This document shows, piece after piece, positions 23,623-50,575 of a stretch of 64,000 bases of DNA. The DNA is taken from contig NZ_CP034759.1 of assembly GCF_004295665.1 (NCBI RefSeq), positions 1,736,001-1,800,000 of the forward strand, written 5' to 3'. The translations under genes and the position numbers were made by a program. The notes below the pieces were generated by a model that ran no database searches, was not told the DNA's origin, and saw only the letters and a program-made list of their open reading frames with translations. Every line of letters begins with the position of its first letter. The stretch's first letter is position 1. This stretch comes from Litorilituus sediminis (lineage in GTDB: Bacteria; Pseudomonadota; Gammaproteobacteria; Enterobacterales; Alteromonadaceae).

Positions 23623-24917
23623 ATCGACAGTTAATGTGGAAGTTATGCCTACTGATTACTGCCGGCATAGTCGCTTTATTCTATGTCATTAACACGCTCA
23701 CCTCACGCACAGAGGGAGGCATGAGTTTTCTAAAAGACGAGCACAGACAAGAGCTTACCGCCTGAGGAAAACAAGCAGAGCAAATTTACCTAACGCTAGG
23801 AGTTAGCGCCTTAGAAACCTACCTTAAAACGCTGCAACAAAGAGAAGATACTTGGGTTTCTGTCATTAATTATCAACTAAACAAACTGGCTGGCGATGTC
23901 ATTAAAGCAGATTATTATCAAGGCTATAATTTCGGCCGCAGTGTTGATTGGAAAGTGCATTTATATTTTGCCCGTAACCCCGTAATGGAAGTACCGTTTC
24001 AAGAGGGCCAAGTTAGCTTCTTAATCCAATTGCCTGAGCGCATGCGACCCGGCTCGTATTGGCGTCATACGCGCGTAACAATGCAAATCATTTTACCGAT
24101 GATCTTACTGGCGCTGTTATCCTATTTACTCTATCGCCATATTATGGCGCCATTAAAGCAACTACAATTAGCGACTCAGGCTTTCAGCCATGGCAACTTA
24201 AAGGTAAGAGTACGAAAGCTATTAGGCAGTCGAAATGATGAACTAAGTGAGCTTGCTAATACCTTTGATCAAATGGCAGCACGCATTGGTGAGTTAATTG
24301 TTGGTCAAAGGCAGCTTATCGCCGATTTATCCCATGAACTAAGAACACCATTAACTCGCCTTGATATAGCCTTAGACAACTTATCAAGCCAAAATGAAAA
24401 CCAAGAAAATATCGAGCGAATAAAGCGAGAATCAAAGCAAATTCGTCGCTTAGTAGAAGATACCCTAACCTTGGCTTGGTTAACTAACGAAAAGCCCAAG
24501 CTACAGCAAGAGTCAATTGATTTAGTCGATTTACTTGATGTGGTTATTGATGATGCGCAATTTGAGTTTCCGCAAAAACGTATTCATTGCCAGCTACCAA
24601 ATAGCGCCCAATTAAATAACTCAAGCCATCGCGCCTTAGGTCAAGCACTAGAAAATATTATCCGCAATGCCTTACGCTACACCTCAAAAGATAAAGGTAT
24701 CAAAATTACCCTAAAAGAGAGCGTACAGCATTTTGAAATTGATATCGCAGATAATGGCCCTGGAGTACCTAAAGAGTATTTAAGCAAAATATTCGAGCCG
24801 TTTTTTCGCGTTGATAAATCTCGCCCCGCGGGCAGCGACAGTTTTGGCTTAGCGCTTGCTCAGCGACAAATCGCTGCGATTAACGGTGAGATATTTGCAC
24901 AAAATCGCATAAATGGT
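23619..24917 (+). pseudogene. sensor histidine kinase, 5' part (in-frame stop, then split by IS4-family element)
   Basis: A membrane kinase of the EnvZ/PfeS type. The first membrane segment (7-25) is followed by a periplasmic region, a second segment (about 155-175), HAMP (about 180-230), an H-box LSHELRTPLTRLD (His239), an N-box IIRNALRYT and DNGPGVP. Codon 49 (23763-23765) is TGA in ELTA-stop-GKQAEQIY, where Trp (TGG) would fit. The reading frame is then cut at 24917 by an IS4-family element, only 12 codons before its natural end. The last 13 codons resume at 26356. Confidence 0.87.
24908..24917. repeat. left target-site duplication of the IS4-family element
   Basis: CATAAATGGT, matching CACCAATGGT at 26349-26358 at 8 of 10 positions. 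The reading frame of the kinase continues when one copy is removed with the element. Confidence 0.7.
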
Positions 24918-41383: not shown

Positions 41384-44278
41384 TTAAGTAACGAGATATT
41401 TTTGCCATAAAGCCGTTATCTTTTGCTGCTCATCCAATTCACTTACCTCTAACAATTGCGAAAGGTTTTGCATACTTGCTTGATGTCCATAAGCTCTAAG
41501 CTTCTGGTAATTCTGACTTAATAAATCTTGTTCCTGTTTACTAATAAAGCCTTGCTGAGCCAACACTTTAAAAATGCCTAGGTTATCGCATGGCAAAGTT
41601 AGCTTGATATCATTAGCGCTATAGGCCAACACTAAAAACTGCGCCAAAAACTCGATATCGACTAAGCCACCTACACCTTGCTTAATATCGAACATTTGCT
41701 CTGTTGATTTATCTAAGTGGTTACGCATTTTTTCGCGCATTTCTACCACATCATTTATCAATTTAGCTTTATCTCGTGTGCTTGCTAGCACTTGCTGTCT
41801 TATCTTAGCGAATTTCTCTAGCAGTACACTATTACCATAGACCATACGAGCTCTCACTAAAGCCTGATGTTCCCATGTCCAAGCATCTTCTTGCTGATAC
41901 TGAGCAAAAGTATTCAGGTGTACTACCAATACCCCTGAATTGCCTGAAGGCCTTAAGCGCATATCTAATTCATATAAAATACCGCTACTCATGCGGGTAT
42001 TAAAAATATGCATAATCCGCTGCGCTAACTTCATATAAAACTGACTTGCAGGAATGGATTTTGCGCCATCTAGGCGACCTGTAGTCATTTCTTCTCGTTC
42101 ACTGTGATGAACAAACACCAAATCTAAATCTGAACTATAACCTAGCTCTGTACCGCCTGTTTTACCATAAGCAATAACAGCAAAGCCTTTATTCTCACTA
42201 TCAACGCAAGATTCAGGCACACCAAATCGCGTAGATACTTGCTGCCACGCAAGGTTAATGACTTCCTCAATAATAGCTTCTGCCAGTGCAGTTAAATGTT
42301 GACTGACTTTAGCAACATCAAGCACTTGAGCAATATCAGCCGCAGCAATACGTAATTGCTGTGATTGTTTAAACTGCCTTAACGCTTCCATTTGCGCTTC
42401 TAAGTCTTCTTCTGGAATACGCAACATACGCTCTCTTAACTCTAGCGCGTATGCTGATAATTGTGGCGGATTGTGCAACAACTTAGGATCAATTAACTCA
42501 TCTAATAAAATCGGGTACTTAGCGATATAATCAGTGACCCAACTACTTGCTTTGCATAAGTGAATTAACTGCTTAAAGGCACCCTCATTTTCAAACAGTA
42601 ACTCCAAGTAAGCCGTGCGAGTGATGATCTTACTAAACACCGTTAACACACGTTCTAGTACAACATCAGCTTGCGCTAGTGTTTGAATATGACAAAGCAA
42701 TAATGGGATCAGTTTATCTAATACCAAACGACCGCGATTACCTAAACTGCGCTTAACTAATTCATCTCTAAAAGTGCTTAAGTGTCGCCATATTGCTTCA
42801 CTGTCGGCAAAGCCATCATCTTGTGCTAGCCAAGCAATTGATTCTTCATCACTCCAACGGCTATGCCATAATGTCACCCAATGTTCATCCGCAGCTTGAT
42901 GATTAGGGCTTTCAACACCAATCAATTGTTCAAACTCTAAGTGAACACCATCCATATGTAGTTGTAACTGAGCTAAAAAATCAGGCCATGTTGCTATATT
43001 TAAGACACTAAGCAAACGCTGCTGGTCAATTTCTGTATCAGGTAATGTTTGTGTTTGCTGATCGGCTAGTGCTTGAATGATGTTTTCAACTCGTCTTAAA
43101 AAACAATAAGCTGACTCTAATACCTGTTTACTTTTCTCTGATAACTCGCCTGCGTCAACCAATAGCGGTAATACTGTTAATAAGTGACGTTGTTGTAGGT
43201 ACTTGTCTCGACCACCACGAATAAGCTGAAACACTTGCACAATAAATTCAATTTCTCGAATACCACCAGCACCTAGCTTAATATTATTGACCAGTTGCTT
43301 ACGCCTAACCTCCTGAGAAATCATCATTTTCATTCGGCGAAGGCTATCAATAACACTAAAGTCAATGTAGCGACGATAAACAAAGGGTCTTAGCATACTC
43401 GATAATTGCTGATGATAAGGGCTGTCACCAATTAAACGCGCCTTTAACATGGCATAGCGCTCCCAATCACGCCCCTGCTCTTGATAATAATCTTCCATGG
43501 CATTGAAAGTTAAAACTAACGGACCACTTTCACCAAATGGCCTTAAACGCATATCAACACGATAAACAAAGCCATCTGCCGTTACTTGATGCAAAGACGT
43601 AATTAACTTTTGCGCTAAACGAGTAAAAAACTGCTGGTTATCTAATACGCGGCGACAACCGCTAGTTTCACCGCTTTCAGGGTAAGTAAAAATTAAATCA
43701 ATATCGGAAGAAAAATTTAGCTCTTTACCGCCAAGTTTGCCCATACCATAAACCAACAACACTTGTTGCTCACCTTGGCGATTTTGAGGTACGCCCCATT
43801 TCTGCTGACAAAACTCAGTAAGCCAAGCCAAGCTTGCGACAATCAACTCATCAGCTAATGATGACAAACAGGCGAGAGAGACTTCTAAATCAACATTCAA
43901 AACTAAATCAGCAATGGCAATATTAACCATATGCTGTAAACGAAAACGCCTTAAAATACGGTGCAGTTGAGCTTCGTCTTGACAGTCAGATAATAGCTCT
44001 GCGAGTAAGCGTTTATAATCTGGCTGCTTAAAATCAGCGGCTTTTGTCAGGTTTTCACCAACGAATAAAGCAATAACTAAATCAGGTGCTTGCAGTGCAC
44101 TTTTAAGAATAAAATCGCTTAATGTAATTGCTCTTTTAAAAACAACCAGTTGTGCTTTAGTGAGAAGATTACAAGCATCAGGGTGCTGCTCATTAAACTT
44201 TTGCCAATTTTGCTGCTGTTTAGCCAGCAATGACTCAGATAAGGTGGGTAAGGATAAATGCTCTACGCTCATATTCAT
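41384..44278 (-). CDS. glnE: bifunctional glutamine synthetase adenylyltransferase/removase
   Basis: 964 residues. Two nucleotidyltransferase halves are visible: the N-terminal adenylyl-removing domain (GGKELNFSSDIDLIFTYP, about 180-200) and the C-terminal adenylyl-transferring domain (GGTELGYSSDLDLVFVHH, about 705-722), both with the G-G-x-E-L-x-x-S-S-D-x-D-L signature. Each is followed by a PII-uridylyl-transferase-type helical block. It switches glutamine synthetase off and on with nitrogen supply under PII control. In E. coli glnE is next to ygiF; here about 7.6 kb of other genes separate them. Confidence 0.97.
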   Translation of the reverse strand: MNMSVEHLSLPTLSESLLAKQQQNWQKFNEQHPDACNLLTKAQLVVFKRAITLSDFILKSALQAPDLVIALFVGENLTKAADFKQPDYKRLLAELLSDCQDEAQLHRILRRFRLQHMVNIAIADLVLNVDLEVSLACLSSLADELIVASLAWLTEFCQQKWGVPQNRQGEQQVLLVYGMGKLGGKELNFSSDIDLIFTYPESGETSGCRRVLDNQQFFTRLAQKLITSLHQVTADGFVYRVDMRLRPFGESGPLVLTFNAMEDYYQEQGRDWERYAMLKARLIGDSPYHQQLSSMLRPFVYRRYIDFSVIDSLRRMKMMISQEVRRKQLVNNIKLGAGGIREIEFIVQVFQLIRGGRDKYLQQRHLLTVLPLLVDAGELSEKSKQVLESAYCFLRRVENIIQALADQQTQTLPDTEIDQQRLLSVLNIATWPDFLAQLQLHMDGVHLEFEQLIGVESPNHQAADEHWVTLWHSRWSDEESIAWLAQDDGFADSEAIWRHLSTFRDELVKRSLGNRGRLVLDKLIPLLLCHIQTLAQADVVLERVLTVFSKIITRTAYLELLFENEGAFKQLIHLCKASSWVTDYIAKYPILLDELIDPKLLHNPPQLSAYALELRERMLRIPEEDLEAQMEALRQFKQSQQLRIAAADIAQVLDVAKVSQHLTALAEAIIEEVINLAWQQVSTRFGVPESCVDSENKGFAVIAYGKTGGTELGYSSDLDLVFVHHSEREEMTTGRLDGAKSIPASQFYMKLAQRIMHIFNTRMSSGILYELDMRLRPSGNSGVLVVHLNTFAQYQQEDAWTWEHQALVRARMVYGNSVLLEKFAKIRQQVLASTRDKAKLINDVVEMREKMRNHLDKSTEQMFDIKQGVGGLVDIEFLAQFLVLAYSANDIKLTLPCDNLGIFKVLAQQGFISKQEQDLLSQNYQKLRAYGHQASMQNLSQLLEVSELDEQQKITALWQKYLVT

Positions 44279-44293
44279 TCCGCCAGCTACCTA

Positions 44294-44322
44294 TAGACAT
44301 AATATGTCATAAGTGCTATTAA
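44294..44322 (+). promoter_or_regulatory. sigma-70-type promoter of the lipoprotein/DUF350 genes
   Basis: TAGACA (-35, 44294-44299), a 17-base spacer ending TGC, then TATTAA (-10, 44317-44322): an extended -10 promoter. The 13-base segment AGTGCTATTAATT carrying the -10 is duplicated in tandem (44312-44324 and 44325-44337), giving a second possible -10. Confidence 0.5.
44296..44308. promoter_or_regulatory. palindromic operator, copy 1
   Basis: GACATA-A-TATGTC, a perfect palindrome around one central base, upstream of the lipoprotein gene. It overlaps the -35 hexamer of the promoter described at 44294-44322. Two further copies lie upstream of the DUF2170 gene. Confidence 0.65.
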
Positions 44323-44337
44323 TTAGTGCTATTAATT
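44312..44337 (+). repeat. tandem 13-base duplication over the -10 region
   Basis: AGTGCTATTAATT occurs twice without a gap. It duplicates the extended -10 sequence of the promoter. Confidence 0.8.
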
Positions 44338-44433
44338 AAAAAACCCATATAATGCCAAGTAAAATAAACAGTTGATTCTTATTCAATTGGTATCATTTGC
44401 TAACTTAGCATTTTTGAGGAGACAATGGCATAA

Positions 44434-45444
44434 ATGCAAGCGCTTAATAGAGTTTTTTTTAACAAATGGTGCGCTAGAGATTTGTTTAAGCACTTTTTTG
44501 CCCTGCTGACAGTATTTTTACTTACAGCGTGTGGCGATCCAGTTCAAGAGCAAATCACTCAGCAACTACCCATAACAGAGCAACGGATTGAACAGTTAGG
44601 TAATGCATTAACTAACGGACAAGTTCGCAATGCTAACCTGATTAATCAATATGCGGAAAAAGTGTTGGCAATGAAACCAACCCTATCACCACTGATAGCA
44701 GAATTTCAAAAGGACGCATCAACTCAAGGTCCTATGTATCAAGCATTACTTGATCGCCTCAATACCGCCAAAAATCAACCGCAAATGTTTGCCTCATCAC
44801 AGGCTTTGTATAATGAACTGCTTAATATCTATCAAGCCGCCGATCCTGTGCTATTTTCTGACGCATTAAGTGATCCTCTCAATGTGCTTGCCGATATGTC
44901 TGACGGTCAATTGCCACGTATTAACTCTCTTTCAAAAGAGCAAAGTTTGGCGGCTAATAATGCGCAAGACTTTGGCGTTGGTGAGCAGCTTATTGGCAAC
45001 CCGAATTACGGGCAATGGCAAACGGGCAGCAACGGCATGTCATTCTGGGCTTGGTATGGCATGTACTCCATGATGGGCGACTTATTTGGTCGACGCACCT
45101 ACTACAATGACTGGGGACGCTACCGAAATTACAGCTACTACAATGATTATGGCCGTACTCGTTATAGCTCACCAAGCCAGCTGAAAAAACAAACCAATCT
45201 TGATACTCGCATGAAAAAATCTTTTGCCAGTCGAGGACAAAAATTCACTAGTCCTTACAGCAAGAATCGCGCGGGTTCATCAAGCTTATCAAGCCAAAGC
45301 AAAACCGCACAAAATAGTGCCAATCGCTTTCGAAGTAACAATGTGAAAAAAAGTAGCTACGCTAGCAAATCAAGATCAAGTAAAAGCTCAAGCTTTCGCA
45401 ACAGTAATACCAACACATCACGTAGCTTTAGACGTGGTAAATAA
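44434..45444 (+). CDS. lipoprotein with Tyr/Ser/Arg-rich low-complexity tail
   Basis: 336 residues. A lipoprotein signal ends at LTAC (about Cys33), with a long N-region. Residues about 38-180 are helical. A WAWYGMYSMMGDLFG segment (about 208-222) comes next, then a Tyr/Arg/Asn-rich stretch (YYNDWGRYRNYSYYNDYG), then a Ser/Lys/Arg-rich tail ending SFRRGK. I do not recognise a named family. The SFW...Y.MMG segment and disordered tail recall DUF1190 proteins such as E. coli YjfM, and the next gene is a YjfL homologue as in E. coli, so it may fill the same role (inference). It is 26 bases upstream of the DUF350 gene. Confidence 0.75.
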   Translation: MQALNRVFFNKWCARDLFKHFFALLTVFLLTACGDPVQEQITQQLPITEQRIEQLGNALTNGQVRNANLINQYAEKVLAMKPTLSPLIAEFQKDASTQGPMYQALLDRLNTAKNQPQMFASSQALYNELLNIYQAADPVLFSDALSDPLNVLADMSDGQLPRINSLSKEQSLAANNAQDFGVGEQLIGNPNYGQWQTGSNGMSFWAWYGMYSMMGDLFGRRTYYNDWGRYRNYSYYNDYGRTRYSSPSQLKKQTNLDTRMKKSFASRGQKFTSPYSKNRAGSSSLSSQSKTAQNSANRFRSNNVKKSSYASKSRSSKSSSFRNSNTNTSRSFRRGK

Positions 45445-45470
45445 GAAAAACAGGAATAGCAGGACAATTT

Positions 45471-46373
45471 ATGAATACATTTATCGAACTCGTTGGTGTT
45501 AATCAGGAACTACTTGTTTTTCTCGCCATCGACATCACAATAGCCATTATTTTACTTGGTGCAATGCGCTTTTTATCGGGCTTATCAGCACAAGTTAATA
45601 GCACGGAAGAATTAGCCAAACAAGACAACTTTGCCTTCGGTATTAGTGTCGCTGGCAGTATATTAGCACTAGGTATTGTATTAACTGGGGCAATCACAGG
45701 TGAAGCTGCCAGCAGCTACATGATGGAAGTGGTCGGTATGCTCGCTTACGGCGGCTATGGTTTATTACTGATAAAAGTGGGCCGAGTTATCCACGATAAA
45801 GTCGCACTGCAACGCTTAAATAAAACCGCATTAATTAAAGAGAAAAATCTTACCATTGGCATTATTGATGCTGCTGGTGCTATTGCCACAGCGATTGTTA
45901 TTAGAGCCGTATTGCTTTGGGTAGACGGCTTAGATTTAAGTACCTTTATCGCGATTACCAGTGGCTTCTTTGTCGCACAAGCAGTATTAGTGATTGTCAC
46001 TCGTATCAGAGAAAATCAATACGCTAAGAATAACCAAGAAGACTGCTTACAAGAAGCTTTGAGTAAAGGGCAATTAGCTTTGGCTATTCGCTATAGTGGT
46101 CAAGTGATTAGTACCGCTTTAGCTGTTACCGCGGCAAGTCATTTCTTAATTTATAGCCCAGATACCTTAGTAATGAACTTAATTGGCTGGTTAGTGTTTG
46201 GCGTTATTATGACGTTATTGGTTGCACTATTAACTGCACTTGCTAAACGTATTGTTTTATGGGGTATCAACTTAGTAGAAGAAGTGGATCAACAACACAA
46301 TATCGGTGTTGCCAGTATAGAAATGGCAACAAGCATAGGTATAGCATTAATTTTAACGGCATTGATGGCCTAA
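45471..46373 (+). CDS. yjfL: DUF350 membrane protein (YjfL-like)
   Basis: 300 residues with about eight membrane segments in two similar halves, each a DUF350 repeat (GISVAGSILALGIVLTGAI and IEMATSIGIALILTAL regions). DUF350 proteins have no proven activity; they recur next to PspA, DUF2170, DUF2491 and polyamine or glutathionylspermidine enzymes. It sits between the lipoprotein and the spermidine-synthase-like gene, followed by a terminator that may attenuate transcription into the latter. Confidence 0.88.
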   Translation: MNTFIELVGVNQELLVFLAIDITIAIILLGAMRFLSGLSAQVNSTEELAKQDNFAFGISVAGSILALGIVLTGAITGEAASSYMMEVVGMLAYGGYGLLLIKVGRVIHDKVALQRLNKTALIKEKNLTIGIIDAAGAIATAIVIRAVLLWVDGLDLSTFIAITSGFFVAQAVLVIVTRIRENQYAKNNQEDCLQEALSKGQLALAIRYSGQVISTALAVTAASHFLIYSPDTLVMNLIGWLVFGVIMTLLVALLTALAKRIVLWGINLVEEVDQQHNIGVASIEMATSIGIALILTALMA

Positions 46374-46381
46374 ACATCAAC

Positions 46382-46409
46382 AAGCCCAGCAATACGCTGG
46401 GCTTATTTT
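46382..46409 (+). terminator. rho-independent terminator after the DUF350 gene
   Basis: Stem AAGCCCAGC / GCTGGGCTT with an AATAC loop and the T-rich tail ATTTTTA. Confidence 0.8.
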
Positions 46410-46445
46410 TATCGCTATTCACTCCCTAGTTTTATTTTCAATCTC

Positions 46446-48137
46446 ATGACAAGCAAAAAAAGCCACCTACTCGATGACACCTTATTAATTCTTACCATGG
46501 CCGTATTAGCAGGTTGTGGGTTAATTTATGAATACTTATTATCCCATTATGCCGGCCGAGTCATAGGCGTTATGGAAAGCGCCATCTACACTATGATTGG
46601 CCTGATGATCGTCTCAATGGGTTTAGGTGCATTTGCCGCAAGAAAGGTAAAATGTGCATTTAATGGTTTTGTCTGGCTTGAGCTAATTATCGCCTTGCTT
46701 GGTAGTAGCGCAATTTTACTTATTGGTGGCTTGATTGCTATTACGCAAATATTTCCCCACATCATCGCTGATTTATTCTCTATGCCGCCAGATATGCGTC
46801 CACAAGGTGGTATTTTTAAGCAATTAAGCTGGTTAGCACATAAAAGTCCTTACTTTTTCGGCATACTGCTGGGTTTTTTTATTGGTATGGAAATTCCGCT
46901 TATTGCCCGCATTCGAGAGCACATTCATCAAAAGCACTTAGCCAATAACTTAGGCACTATTTACGGCGCAGACTATGTGGGTGCTGGTATTGGCGCAGCA
47001 ATTTGGGTTATGTTTTTACTAAGCATAGATATATCTAAAGCCGCGGCCTTAACGGCAAGTTTGAACTTAGTCGCAGGCGCCTTCTTTATTTGGCGTTACT
47101 GGCATAAACTTAAATGGAAAAAAACCTTTGTTAGTTTGCACCTAGTACTCGCTGTAGTCATTGTTGTTATGTTCAATTACGGTAACCAATGGCTCAATCA
47201 AATGAATAGCGTGCTCTATTTAGACAAAGTTGTACATTCAGCTAAAACCCGTTATCAGCAATTAACCTTTACTGAGCGCCATATGGGCTTAGAGCATGAA
47301 AACATTATCAATTTCTACCTAAACGGTCGCTTGCAATTTTCCTCATTAGACGAGCATATTTATCATGACTATTTAGTTGCACCAGCATTAGCAGCATCAG
47401 CCAGACAAGAGCATATTCTTATTATCGGCGGCGGTGATGGCTTAGCGTTACGTGATGTGCTTATGTACTCGCCAAAATCAGTGACCTTAATTGACCTAGA
47501 CAGTGAATTAATCAATATATTTAAGCAACCAGAGCAACATGTTAATCCGCGCTTAGCCAAACAACTTAACCAACTAAATCAAAATAGTTTGCAAGATAAA
47601 CGCGTCACCATTAAAACCGCGGATGCTTTTATTGCTATTGATGAATTACTGGCAAAAAATCAAGTGTTTGATGCCATTATTGTTGATCTACCCGATCCAA
47701 GTCACCCCGATCTAAACAAGCTGTATTCTGTGAACTTTTATGCCCGTTTAAAACAGTTACTTGCTGGCGATGGCCTAATAGCGATCCAATCAACTAGCCC
47801 TTATCATGCGAAAGAGTCTTTTATTTCAATTGGCAACACAGTCGCTGCGGCAGAATTTTCTCATGTTCAACAATACCATGACAATGTGCCAAGTTTTGGT
47901 GAATGGGGTTGGACTATTGCAGCTAAAACAGGGTTAAGCCCATTACAACGTTTAAATAATCTTCAGGCATTGCCCATTGCACATACTTGGTTAAACTTAG
48001 CCATACTTAAAGCCGCTTTTGTTTTTCCAAATAACTTTTATGAAAATAAAAATGAAATAGAGGTCAACACCTTAGGCAGTCATACAATTTATCAGCTGCA
48101 CCAAAAGGCTTGGCAAGATCAACAAGGCTTGAATTAG
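46446..48137 (+). CDS. membrane-anchored spermidine-synthase-like aminopropyltransferase
   Basis: 563 residues. The N-terminal half (about 12-242) has seven or so membrane segments. The C-terminal half is a spermidine-synthase fold: NGRLQFSSLDEHIYHDYL (about 293-310), the nucleotide-binding IIGGGDGLALRD (326-337), an acidic ribose contact TLIDLDSEL (347-355), and the catalytic-type VDLPDPSHPDLNKLYS (413-428). Such enzymes would transfer aminopropyl from decarboxylated S-adenosylmethionine, but no AdoMet decarboxylase gene is nearby, so donor and acceptor are open. A membrane-bound polyamine enzyme beside DUF350 and PspA genes points to envelope protection (inference). Confidence 0.87.
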   Translation: MTSKKSHLLDDTLLILTMAVLAGCGLIYEYLLSHYAGRVIGVMESAIYTMIGLMIVSMGLGAFAARKVKCAFNGFVWLELIIALLGSSAILLIGGLIAITQIFPHIIADLFSMPPDMRPQGGIFKQLSWLAHKSPYFFGILLGFFIGMEIPLIARIREHIHQKHLANNLGTIYGADYVGAGIGAAIWVMFLLSIDISKAAALTASLNLVAGAFFIWRYWHKLKWKKTFVSLHLVLAVVIVVMFNYGNQWLNQMNSVLYLDKVVHSAKTRYQQLTFTERHMGLEHENIINFYLNGRLQFSSLDEHIYHDYLVAPALAASARQEHILIIGGGDGLALRDVLMYSPKSVTLIDLDSELINIFKQPEQHVNPRLAKQLNQLNQNSLQDKRVTIKTADAFIAIDELLAKNQVFDAIIVDLPDPSHPDLNKLYSVNFYARLKQLLAGDGLIAIQSTSPYHAKESFISIGNTVAAAEFSHVQQYHDNVPSFGEWGWTIAAKTGLSPLQRLNNLQALPIAHTWLNLAILKAAFVFPNNFYENKNEIEVNTLGSHTIYQLHQKAWQDQQGLN

Positions 48138-48201
48138 GCAAGTACAGCCTAAATATGTTAATTAGCGTTACAACTAAATAAAATTAATCACAAATAGGCT
48201 C

Positions 48202-48229
48202 TTGACATAATATGTCAAAGTGCTAAATT
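48202..48229 (+). promoter_or_regulatory. promoter of the DUF2170-pspA unit with overlapping operator (copy 2)
   Basis: TTGACATA-A-TATGTCAA (48202-48218) is a perfect 17-base palindrome whose left end is a consensus -35 (TTGACA, 48202-48207). A 16-base spacer ending TGC leads to TAAATT (-10, 48224-48229), an extended -10. The layout matches the promoter at 44294, including the AAGTGC run. Confidence 0.6.
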
Positions 48230-48239
48230 TAACCAAGAC

Positions 48240-48252
48240 GACATATTATGTC
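48240..48252. promoter_or_regulatory. palindromic operator, copy 3
   Basis: GACATA-T-TATGTC, the same palindrome with the opposite central base, centred 36 bases downstream of copy 2, just after the -10. Two sites flanking the start region would suit cooperative repression. Confidence 0.6.
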
Positions 48253-48316
48253 ATCGATTTTAAGCAAGCAGTGAAGTTACTGTATCGCTTTGTTTATTAA
48301 TAAGGATAGGAAATAC

Positions 48317-48730
48317 ATGAATATTCATACTATAGCCGATCATTTAAATAGTCTGGCAGATAATTCAGACACAGGGATGAGTTTCGACTGCCAACCAATA
48401 TCTGGTGAGGTGGACGTACTACAAATTAGTATTTTAGGGCGTGAAGAAATTCCCGTATTCGTTTCAGTAACTGAAGATCAAATTCTTTGTATTAGCTACT
48501 TATGGGGCGAAGAAGAGGTAAAACCTGAGTGTATAGCGGCAATGCATCAAAGCATGCTAGAAATGAACATTCCAATGCCATTATCATCATTCTCAAAAAT
48601 TGGTGATAAATACGTAATTTTTGGTGCCTTGTCCAATAACTCTAGTTTTGCAGATATTGAACATGAGTTAGCGGTACTAAGTAACAACGCACTTGAAGTA
48701 ATTGATGATATGAGTGACTACCTTCGCTAA
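48317..48730 (+). CDS. yjfI: DUF2170 protein (YjfI-like)
   Basis: I chose the ATG at 48317 (MNIHTIADHLNSL) preceded by AGGA; the frame also opens from a TTG at 48290. 137 residues, acidic, no signal or membrane segment. The LSSFSKIGDKYVIFGALS segment and acidic C-terminus match DUF2170, the family of E. coli YjfI. No activity is known. It is 46 bases before the PspA gene, the same pairing as yjfI-yjfJ. Confidence 0.87.
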   Translation: MNIHTIADHLNSLADNSDTGMSFDCQPISGEVDVLQISILGREEIPVFVSVTEDQILCISYLWGEEEVKPECIAAMHQSMLEMNIPMPLSSFSKIGDKYVIFGALSNNSSFADIEHELAVLSNNALEVIDDMSDYLR

Positions 48731-48776: not shown

Positions 48777-49466
48777 ATGAGTATATTTAAAAAGATTATG
48801 ACTGCAATTCGCGGTGGTGCTTCAGAAGCTGGTGAAGCTATTATTGATGCCAATGCGACCCGTATTTTTGAACAAGAAATCCGTGATGCTGAAAATCACT
48901 TAACTAAAGCTAAGCGTGACTTAACTGGCGTAATGGCTGAACAAATGGCAGCAAAACGCGAAGTAGATCGCTTAACAAGAGAAATTACTGAGCATGAAGG
49001 CTATGCGGCACAAGCGCTTGAAAAAGGCGATGAAAGCTTAGCATTAGCGGTAGCAGAAAAGATTGCCAACCTTGAAGGCGAGCTTGCAACTCAACAGCAA
49101 GCGCTAGATAGCTTCACAGGTAATGCTGAACGCTTAAAAGAGCTAGTGAAAAAGAGTGAACGTCAAGTTGCTGAGCATAAGCGTCAACTTTCAATGGTTA
49201 AAACCACTGAAAGCGTGCAAAAAGCAACATCAGCAATTACTGACAACTTCTCTTCAAGCAACTCTAAGCTATTAAGTGCGAAAGACTCATTAGAGCGCAT
49301 TAAAGCTAAGCAGCAAAAGTTTGATGATCAAATGAAAGCTGCCGAAGTACTTGAATCTGAAGACAGTGATGCGTCACTTGCGGCTCAACTTAAAGCTGCA
49401 GGCATTGGCTCACAAGACAATAGCGCTAACTCAGTGTTAGAGCGTATTAAAGCCAAGCAAAAATAG
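48777..49466 (+). CDS. yjfJ: PspA/IM30 family protein (YjfJ-like)
   Basis: 229 residues, nearly all coiled coil, with the PspA/IM30 pattern: an amphipathic start (MSIFKKIMTAIRGG), EQEIRDAENHLTKAKRDLTGVMAEQMAAKREV, and long helices to about residue 215. PspA and IM30 polymerise on membranes and stabilise them under stress. This is the YjfJ branch, tied to DUF2170/DUF2491, not the pspABC operon; there is no pspB or pspC. A GGAG ribosome site precedes the ATG, and a strong terminator follows. Confidence 0.92.
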   Translation: MSIFKKIMTAIRGGASEAGEAIIDANATRIFEQEIRDAENHLTKAKRDLTGVMAEQMAAKREVDRLTREITEHEGYAAQALEKGDESLALAVAEKIANLEGELATQQQALDSFTGNAERLKELVKKSERQVAEHKRQLSMVKTTESVQKATSAITDNFSSSNSKLLSAKDSLERIKAKQQKFDDQMKAAEVLESEDSDASLAAQLKAAGIGSQDNSANSVLERIKAKQK

Positions 49467-49484
49467 TACATTATGCTTAAAACA

Positions 49485-49511
49485 GCGAGTTACCTAGGTA
49501 ACTCGCTTTTT
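49485..49511 (+). terminator. rho-independent terminator after the PspA gene
   Basis: Palindrome GCGAGTTACC-TA-GGTAACTCGC followed by TTTTT. Confidence 0.88.
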
Positions 49512-49594: not shown

Positions 49595-50236
49595 ATGAGT
49601 TTATTCAATAAAATCTTCAATAAAACCAAACAAGAACAGCGTAAACTTACTCAAGTTAATCAGCTACTTATTGGTGATATTATCGTGTTAACTGACAGCT
49701 TTGCCTTACCTGAAGCACTACGAGGGCAAGAATTTCAAGTATCAGCCATCAATACCTATGAGTATGAACATCACAATCAACTTGAGTGGGTTCTAAAAGG
49801 CAACAATAATCTTGAGCTATTCTTATCATTAGAAGCGGATGACACAACGGAGCTCAAGTTTTCAATTAAAATTGAGCGTGAAGATGTGGAATCTTTATTT
49901 GATCTTGATGATTTTTCAGAAATTTTTGATGAACCAGGGCAAGCATTTTTAAATAAACAGCAAGACAGTGACTTAACCATGGGTTGGTCAGACGAAGAAT
50001 ATCAGCAAAATACCTTTGCTAAAGTCGGTTATTTTCATCGTAAAGATCACCGCAGCGAAAACCTTAGTGCCTACCAAGGAAAAGACAGCGGTGAACAATT
50101 TGAGCTGTATGCATTATTTAACGCTGATCAAAGCAAAGGTATTGATATTGAGGTTTGGCAAGACGGCGATACTGACGTCTGCCTTACCTTATTTAGACCA
50201 CTAACCGATGTGGTTGATATGTATCCAGCAACCTAG
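49595..50236 (+). CDS. yjfK: DUF2491 protein (YjfK-like)
   Basis: 213 residues of the DUF2491 family (E. coli YjfK). Cytoplasmic, acidic and beta-rich, with LLIGDIIVLTDSFALPEALRG near the N-terminus and DIEVWQDGDTDVCLTLFRPL near the C-terminus. Function unknown. It lies past the PspA terminator and either has its own promoter or depends on read-through. Confidence 0.88.
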   Translation: MSLFNKIFNKTKQEQRKLTQVNQLLIGDIIVLTDSFALPEALRGQEFQVSAINTYEYEHHNQLEWVLKGNNNLELFLSLEADDTTELKFSIKIEREDVESLFDLDDFSEIFDEPGQAFLNKQQDSDLTMGWSDEEYQQNTFAKVGYFHRKDHRSENLSAYQGKDSGEQFELYALFNADQSKGIDIEVWQDGDTDVCLTLFRPLTDVVDMYPAT

Positions 50237-50257: not shown

Positions 50258-50575
50258 ATGAGCAGAAAAATCCCGGAAAAATGGCAATCATCAGTCAAAG
50301 CAATGAAAGCGGTACAAGTGGCTTTTGACATGGATGAAAAAATTCAACTCTCTATCAGAAAAGAAGCGCTTGAGGCAGGCCTAAGCCCATCAGATCAAAT
50401 CAGAGATATTCTTGGCCTCCCTGTCAATAAGCGTCCAAAAAGACCGCGTTTAACGGTCAGTTTAGCGCCAAGTGACTATGAAGTATTAGCTGAAAAATAT
50501 GGTTTAGCCGTTGATCAACAGCTAGAAATTAAAAAAAGATTAATGGACGATTTAATCAAGCACGTCAACAAGTAA
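50258..50575 (+). CDS. small basic protein, possible ribbon-helix-helix DNA binder
   Basis: I chose the ATG at 50258 (MSRKIPEKWQSSV) because GAAGAG lies 8 bases upstream; the frame opens at 50240. 105 residues. Two segments each look like a short beta strand followed by two helices: VQVAFDMDEKIQLSIRKEAL with PSDQIRDILGL, and RLTVSLAPSDYEVLAEKYGL with a final helix. This is the layout of ribbon-helix-helix proteins. It is the last gene of the yjf-like cluster, 21 bases after DUF2491. A regulator binding the GACATA palindromes is a reasonable but untested idea. Confidence 0.6.
   Translation: MSRKIPEKWQSSVKAMKAVQVAFDMDEKIQLSIRKEALEAGLSPSDQIRDILGLPVNKRPKRPRLTVSLAPSDYEVLAEKYGLAVDQQLEIKKRLMDDLIKHVNK

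Follow-up and report, generated by a model that had tools for sequence, protein, structure and literature searches.

The 64,000-nucleotide stretch of the Litorilituus sediminis genome considered here (the window; contig NZ_CP034759.1, positions 1,736,001 to 1,800,000) contains a cluster of two operons that encode, among other products, a PspA/IM30 family protein, a DUF350 membrane protein and a polyamine aminopropyltransferase. The palindrome GACATA-N-TATGTC (GACATANTATGTC) occurs at the promoters of both operons and looks like a real, conserved DNA switch. Its reader is most likely a 105-aa predicted tandem ribbon-helix-helix (RHH) protein of the same cluster (50258-50575), and the palindrome is probably the operator through which this protein represses both cluster operons and acts at other promoters associated with membrane integrity. 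An earlier note on this DNA had proposed one dedicated repressor for both halves of the cluster. A single dedicated regulator is supported by the conservation of the site, by its co-occurrence with the RHH gene across 295 genomes and by its placement over core promoter elements, and its action would be repression. The earlier note missed that the cluster's last gene probably encodes the regulator and that the regulon reaches beyond the cluster.

The elements of the two promoters are as follows.

44296..44308: operator copy 1, over the -35 of the operon 1 promoter (exact match; one exact site here in 74 of the 80 named loci described below).
44294-44322: operon 1 promoter, with -35 TAGACA (44294-44299), 17 nt and an extended -10 TGC-TATTAA (44314-44322), assigned by reading.
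48202..48218: operator copy 2, a 17-base perfect palindrome containing the -35 TTGACA (exact match, promoter scan and a consensus of 74 promoters).
48224-48229: -10 TAAATT of the operon 2 promoter, preceded by TG and separated from TTGACA by a 16-nt spacer (promoter scan).
48240..48252: operator copy 3, 3' of the -10 (exact match; the pair is kept in 79 of the 80 named loci at spacings of 35-39).

An exact scan of the window located the palindrome at 44296-44308, 48204-48216 and 48240-48252 and nowhere else, in agreement with the earlier note. The closest further match, at 24136, has two mismatches, and no one-mismatch copy occurs elsewhere in the window. The symmetry is perfect over 17 bases in copy 2, an extension that had already been described, and over 13 bases in copies 1 and 3; the starts of copies 2 and 3 are 36 bases apart, also as described. 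Under a first-order model of the window composition, from which the chance expectations are taken, 0.0027 exact copies are expected in 64 kb and the probability of at least three is approximately 3e-9. The whole genome (4,275,717 bases in one contig) holds seven exact copies where 0.18 are expected, and the backwards-read pattern, used as a control, gave no exact match. Beyond the window copies there is one each at 968249, 2004726, 2774172 and 2828375 of the genome, and it is clear that the palindrome is not confined to the cluster. The earlier note had raised the prospect of many scattered copies unrelated to these genes; the copies elsewhere are few and mostly precede membrane genes. Allowing one mismatch, 17 sites were found in the genome versus 5 for the control. 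The excess dwindles once the 17-mer is allowed as many as three mismatches (31 versus 18); thus, weak sites are indistinguishable from chance. A chance repeat is ruled out by copy numbers far above expectation together with the co-occurrence of the site with the RHH gene.

The placement of copies 1 and 2 over the -35 of promoters with an extended -10 was borne out by promoter reading, promoter scan and conservation. Copy 3 lies just 3' of the -10, as had been proposed, with a gap of 10 bases between TAAATT and the site. The elements of the cluster promoters are sigma-70-like. Copies 2 and 3 face each other across TAAATTTA (48202-48254). The promoter scan also picked out a promoter-like site on the minus strand (48254-48226) that takes copy 3 as its -35 and is a possible antisense promoter.

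The palindrome is conserved before orthologous clusters in relatives, the comparison on which the earlier note had staked its proposal. The loci compared, referred to as named loci, are the best 80 of 342 from a search with the RHH alignment and come mostly from Colwellia, Thalassotalea and their kin; they overlap the own-genus genomes described later, so the two sets are not independent. A double exact site lies at most 300 bp before the DUF2170 gene, the first of operon 2, in 78 of the 80 loci, or in 79 if L211 is counted, where the pair starts 321 and 357 bp upstream behind an apparent insertion. In L283 (Oceanimonas) the DUF2170 gene is preceded by a one-mismatch site only. The start-to-start spacing of the pair (n = 78) is 36 bases in 50 loci, 35 in 23, 37 in four and 39 in one. 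The lipoprotein-like gene that opens operon 1 is preceded by a single exact site in 74 of the 80 loci and by none in five, and one locus has no such gene. In a consensus of 74 operon 2 promoters (23 at a spacing of 35 and 51 at 36), both arms of both sites are kept along with TG-N-TAAATT, one A being weaker at a spacing of 35. The consensus of 74 operon 1 promoters likewise keeps TAGACATA-N-TATGTC and TG-N-TATTAAT. Even distant RHH genes (38-51% identity) in G146, G278, G287 and G306 are accompanied by the exact double site before DUF2170, and G267 has two exact sites 34 bp apart just before this gene.

The link between the palindrome and the RHH protein comes from a sample of 295 genomes of the order, in which exact sites were counted and the RHH alignment and DUF2170 were searched; because these genomes are related to one another, Fisher P values should not be read literally. 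The RHH gene was found in 91 genomes and DUF2170 in 126. At least one exact site is present in 69 of the 91 genomes with the RHH gene versus 17 of the 204 without it, at least two in 64 versus 2, and at least three in 43 versus 1, the last being the fragmented G135. When only DUF2170-bearing genomes are considered, at least one exact site is present in 69 of 91 with the RHH gene versus 4 of 35 without. DUF2170 in place of the RHH gene as the companion of the palindrome was ruled out, since 31 of these 35 genomes have no exact site, with the proviso that many of the 35 may carry other operon types. RHH-bearing members of mostly RHH-less groups, such as G146 and G306 of f7, have the site, which is absent from the others sampled of their genera.

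The 22 RHH genomes with no exact site comprise 21 of genus g11 and G273. All 24 genomes searched in g11 contain GACATTTAATGTC on one strand or the other, and the operator takes the variant form GACAT-TWA-ATGTC. Among the 28 variant loci that were read, DUF2170 is present in 25, which give 24 distinct promoters from as many genomes. In all 24 promoters the variant is located 30-36 bp ahead of the DUF2170 start, and a partner site is found 36-40 bp further upstream in 23, L437 being the exception. The first predicted strand of the RHH protein reads VQIAF in g11 (L138, L418-L445) but VQVAF in most others, and the VQIAF form accompanies the operator variant.

The 105-aa protein is predicted to form a tandem RHH with a beta-alpha-alpha fold, a call that rests on predicted models and VIA-align and leaves room for families outside the VIA-align set. 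Searches with the sequence identified no Pfam family at E<=1 and no NCBIfam family, the best PDB match by sequence (E 0.54) was a non-RHH protein, and Foldseek returned no E-value below 0.7 for either model. The closest known proteins were tandem or single-chain RHH DNA-binding proteins, namely the F plasmid TraY (16-17% identity), AvtR (17%) and an engineered single-chain Arc (12%), each with a moderate Z score and a different biological role.

A mechanism may be proposed in which a pair of chains would share the palindrome, with one GACATA half-site per chain and each chain made of two fused RHH units. Protein seated over the -35 at copies 1 and 2, and just past the -10 at copy 3, would block RNA polymerase, and both cluster operons would be repressed, the RHH gene included. 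Autoregulation is implied by the position of the RHH gene downstream of the double site, and an autorepressor is favored since the site covers core promoter elements. The site covers the -35 of the cluster promoters as well as that of several flotillin and SPFH promoters; at htpX it falls, as judged by reading, at the position expected for the -10 that belongs to an upstream TTGAA element. The same site sequence thus shifts between promoter elements, which fits a polymerase-blocking repressor better than an activator. Through single sites, the protein would also act at promoters of the flotillin/YqiJ genes, a second pspA operon, SPFH, HtpX, NhaA, Mrp and carbonic anhydrase genes. Release could follow envelope, sodium or alkaline stress, perhaps by way of the co-encoded DUF2170 protein or PspA. 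DUF2170 may work with the repressor; this cooperation is proposed because loss of the DUF2170 protein BacA raised the other Bac proteins in Pseudomonas aeruginosa biofilm cells, which the authors read as negative control (PMC10948618).

A number of observations weigh against the RHH protein as a repressor at these sites. Some concern the identity of the reader. G135, assembled in 600 contigs, has four sites and no RHH match, and G107 has two exact sites and no RHH match. G023, from the genus of L. sediminis (L142, L093, L363), has three exact sites outside the cluster, in front of the YqiJ-flotillin genes, NhaA and the second pspA operon, and again no RHH match; recent loss of the RHH gene or an assembly gap is a possibility. 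Some single targets, especially in G035, have no obvious membrane role. The exact sites of G023 and G107 would suit an alternative in which the palindrome is read by a regulator encoded elsewhere and co-inherited with the cluster, while the RHH protein has another target or acts as a partner. This is unlikely, however, since the RHH gene sits in the very operon that bears the double site, 43 of the 44 genomes with at least three sites have the RHH gene (the exception being G135), and RHH-bearing members of mostly RHH-less groups, G146 and G306 of f7 among them, have the site while their sampled congeners lack it.

The remaining difficulties concern the direction of control. The sites of the pspA operons lie 178-219 bp before the first open reading frame, and a -10-like hexamer at a fitting distance is present in only 59 of 187 distinct site windows, where 31 are expected. 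As for the promoters themselves, promoter-like sites as a class are not enriched (17 found versus a shuffle mean of 19.2 in the same scan); for this reason, the promoter claim rests on conservation. The upstream location of the pspA-operon sites and the many windows with no -10 placed to make the site a -35 would be at home with an RHH protein that reads the palindrome and activates, or does both depending on the promoter. We consider this improbable, as the cluster sites overlap a consensus -35 with an extended -10 or lie past the -10, positions that suit a repressor. That the palindrome is no operator at all, merely a conserved -35 region or a chance repeat, can be dismissed with near certainty: TTGACA is the sigma-70 -35 consensus and one arm could be promoter sequence, but both arms are kept in 74 promoters, neither copy 3 nor any htpX site is a -35 element, the copy numbers are far over expectation, and 202 of the 204 RHH-less genomes have fewer than two sites.

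As judged from sequence, the predicted regulon of the RHH repressor extends beyond the cluster to other membrane-protection genes. Each count below gives the genomes in which an exact site was found before the gene in the stretches that were read, and is not a census; the genus of L. sediminis was sampled with 31 genomes, and the reading did not take in places of the site in at least G327, G337, G340 and G342. Of the 25 genomes of g6, a genus suspected to be Shewanella, an exact site precedes genes for NfeD and an SPFH protein in 22 (and in G035), HtpX in 21 (and in G038) and a bPH_5 protein in six. In the genus of L. sediminis, the targets are YqiJ with a flotillin-like protein (nine genomes, plus G102), the second pspA operon (ten), another SPFH protein (nine) and NhaA (seven, with G039 and G047 in addition). 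Smaller numbers were found for a beta-carbonic anhydrase (two exact sites, two with one mismatch), an Mrp-type antiporter (one exact, three with one mismatch), YbjQ (exact in two genomes) and a YidC-like (60KD_IMP) protein (a double site in two genomes). Of 213 site rows, counted with duplicates and cluster sites, all but 7 have a gene start within 350 bp; two of the seven lie inside an open reading frame.

In L. sediminis itself, the four exact sites outside the cluster front the YqiJ/flotillin pair, YbjQ (with an M48 peptidase downstream), an M17 aminopeptidase and a 127-aa membrane protein. The 660-aa flotillin-like protein has no Pfam match and is named via its G023 homologue (approximately 30% identity), which matches Flot and Band_7. 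Ten sites carry one mismatch; L013, L014, L015, L018 and L019 look unrelated and were excluded as targets, while L011, L012, L016 and L020 are leads only, L016 being the site of the second pspA operon. A broader proposal, which we hold tentatively and at slightly less than even chances, is that the tandem-RHH autorepressor is the master switch of a previously unrecognized envelope-integrity regulon of marine gammaproteobacteria, joining PspA paralogues, flotillin/SPFH scaffolds, HtpX, sodium/proton antiporters and polyamine chemistry, with release sensed via the DUF2170 chaperone-like protein or PspA.

Two further observations concern the flotillin genes. In the flotillin promoter of L. sediminis (L009:3986-4028, genome 2774157-2774199), the palindrome centers a 43-base perfect inverted repeat with TATAGT on both sides, which could be a mirror-image divergent promoter with one operator. 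In G040 (L139, G040:C324), the DUF2170, PspA and RHH genes are followed on the same strand by a 188-aa open reading frame, a YqiJ-like gene (product 39% identical to that of L. sediminis, no Pfam match) and a Band_7 gene, which gives the impression that the operon and the flotillin branch of the regulon have been joined.

The genes and terminator-like hairpins of the cluster are given below in order, operon 1 ending with the aminopropyltransferase gene.

Adjoining operon 1, minus strand: glnE (PF03710).
44434..45444, plus strand: first gene of operon 1, with a lipoprotein-like start (Pfam search at E<=1 without a match).
45471..46373, plus strand: DUF350 membrane protein (PF03994, E 4.8e-32).
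46382..46404, plus strand: terminator-like hairpin between the DUF350 and aminopropyltransferase genes (consensus match only).
46446..48137, plus strand: polyamine aminopropyltransferase (NF002956, E 1.5e-183, above cut-off; PF01564), whose N-terminal membrane part was recognized by inspection of the translation.
48320..48730, plus strand: DUF2170 (YjfI/BacA family), first gene of operon 2 (PF09938, E 5.8e-38; PDB 8q8o, E 4.6e-8).
48777..49466, plus strand: PspA/IM30 family protein (PF04012, E 1.6e-38).
49484..49507, plus strand: terminator-like hairpin 3' of the PspA gene (consensus match only).
49595..50236, plus strand: DUF4178 protein (PF13785, 25.8 bits, just above the cut-off of 25).
50258..50575, plus strand: candidate regulator, the 105-aa predicted tandem RHH protein, last gene of operon 2 (models, VIA-align and co-occurrence).

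PspA-family operons are widespread beyond the classical psp operon, and to our knowledge little has been established about how they are controlled. Autorepression by RHH proteins is a familiar mode of regulation, of which an RHH-controlled membrane regulon of the psp type would represent a new variety. In the open-licence literature, no report was found of the operator, the regulator-operator link, the autoregulation or an RHH-governed psp/flotillin regulon. If the proposal is true, flotillins, other SPFH proteins, HtpX, antiporters and polyamine modification are tied into one predicted membrane response. With a specific candidate regulator, a 13-bp operator, the promoter anatomy, a target list and orthologous clusters in named strains, both signal and mechanism are directly testable.

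The operon and its RHH gene are already known. The available part of Ravi et al. 2024 (PMC11237479) describes a second group of CesT/Tir-PspA operons with spermine synthase that comprises DUF2170, PspA, an aminopropyltransferase with a membrane part, DUF350, a lipoprotein and DUF4178, some with a final RHH transcription-factor gene. The DUF2170/PspA dyad, aminopropyltransferase, DUF350 and DUF4178 are shared with the cluster described here, whose lipoprotein-like gene is, by position, the "novel lipoprotein" of that operon; the published lipoprotein has a Ctha_1186 domain, and the gene here gave no Pfam match at E<=1 in a search that did not offer this domain as such. The operator, autoregulation and outside targets are not mentioned in that part of the paper. 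Psp systems under PspF, LiaRS or ClgR, as outlined in the same source, also place a PspA-family gene under a dedicated, mostly neighboring regulator. In contrast, the regulator here is predicted to be an RHH protein rather than an AAA+ enhancer-binding protein, a response regulator or a Cro-like helix-turn-helix protein, and the promoter elements are sigma-70-like. The bac operon of P. aeruginosa (PMC10948618) shares the order of a DUF2170 gene followed by a PspA-family gene, but no spermidine synthase gene lies within it or nearby, and its authors propose a sigma-54 site; an RHH regulator does not appear in the accessible text of that paper, from which the term "ribbon" is absent.

For glnE, which is read from the minus strand, copy 1 begins 18 bases ahead of the annotated-style start (44278-44308), and the regulator might also affect glnE given this position. 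A site between glnE and the region of the lipoprotein-like gene is present in 74 of the 80 named loci, the distance tested being that to the lipoprotein-like gene only.
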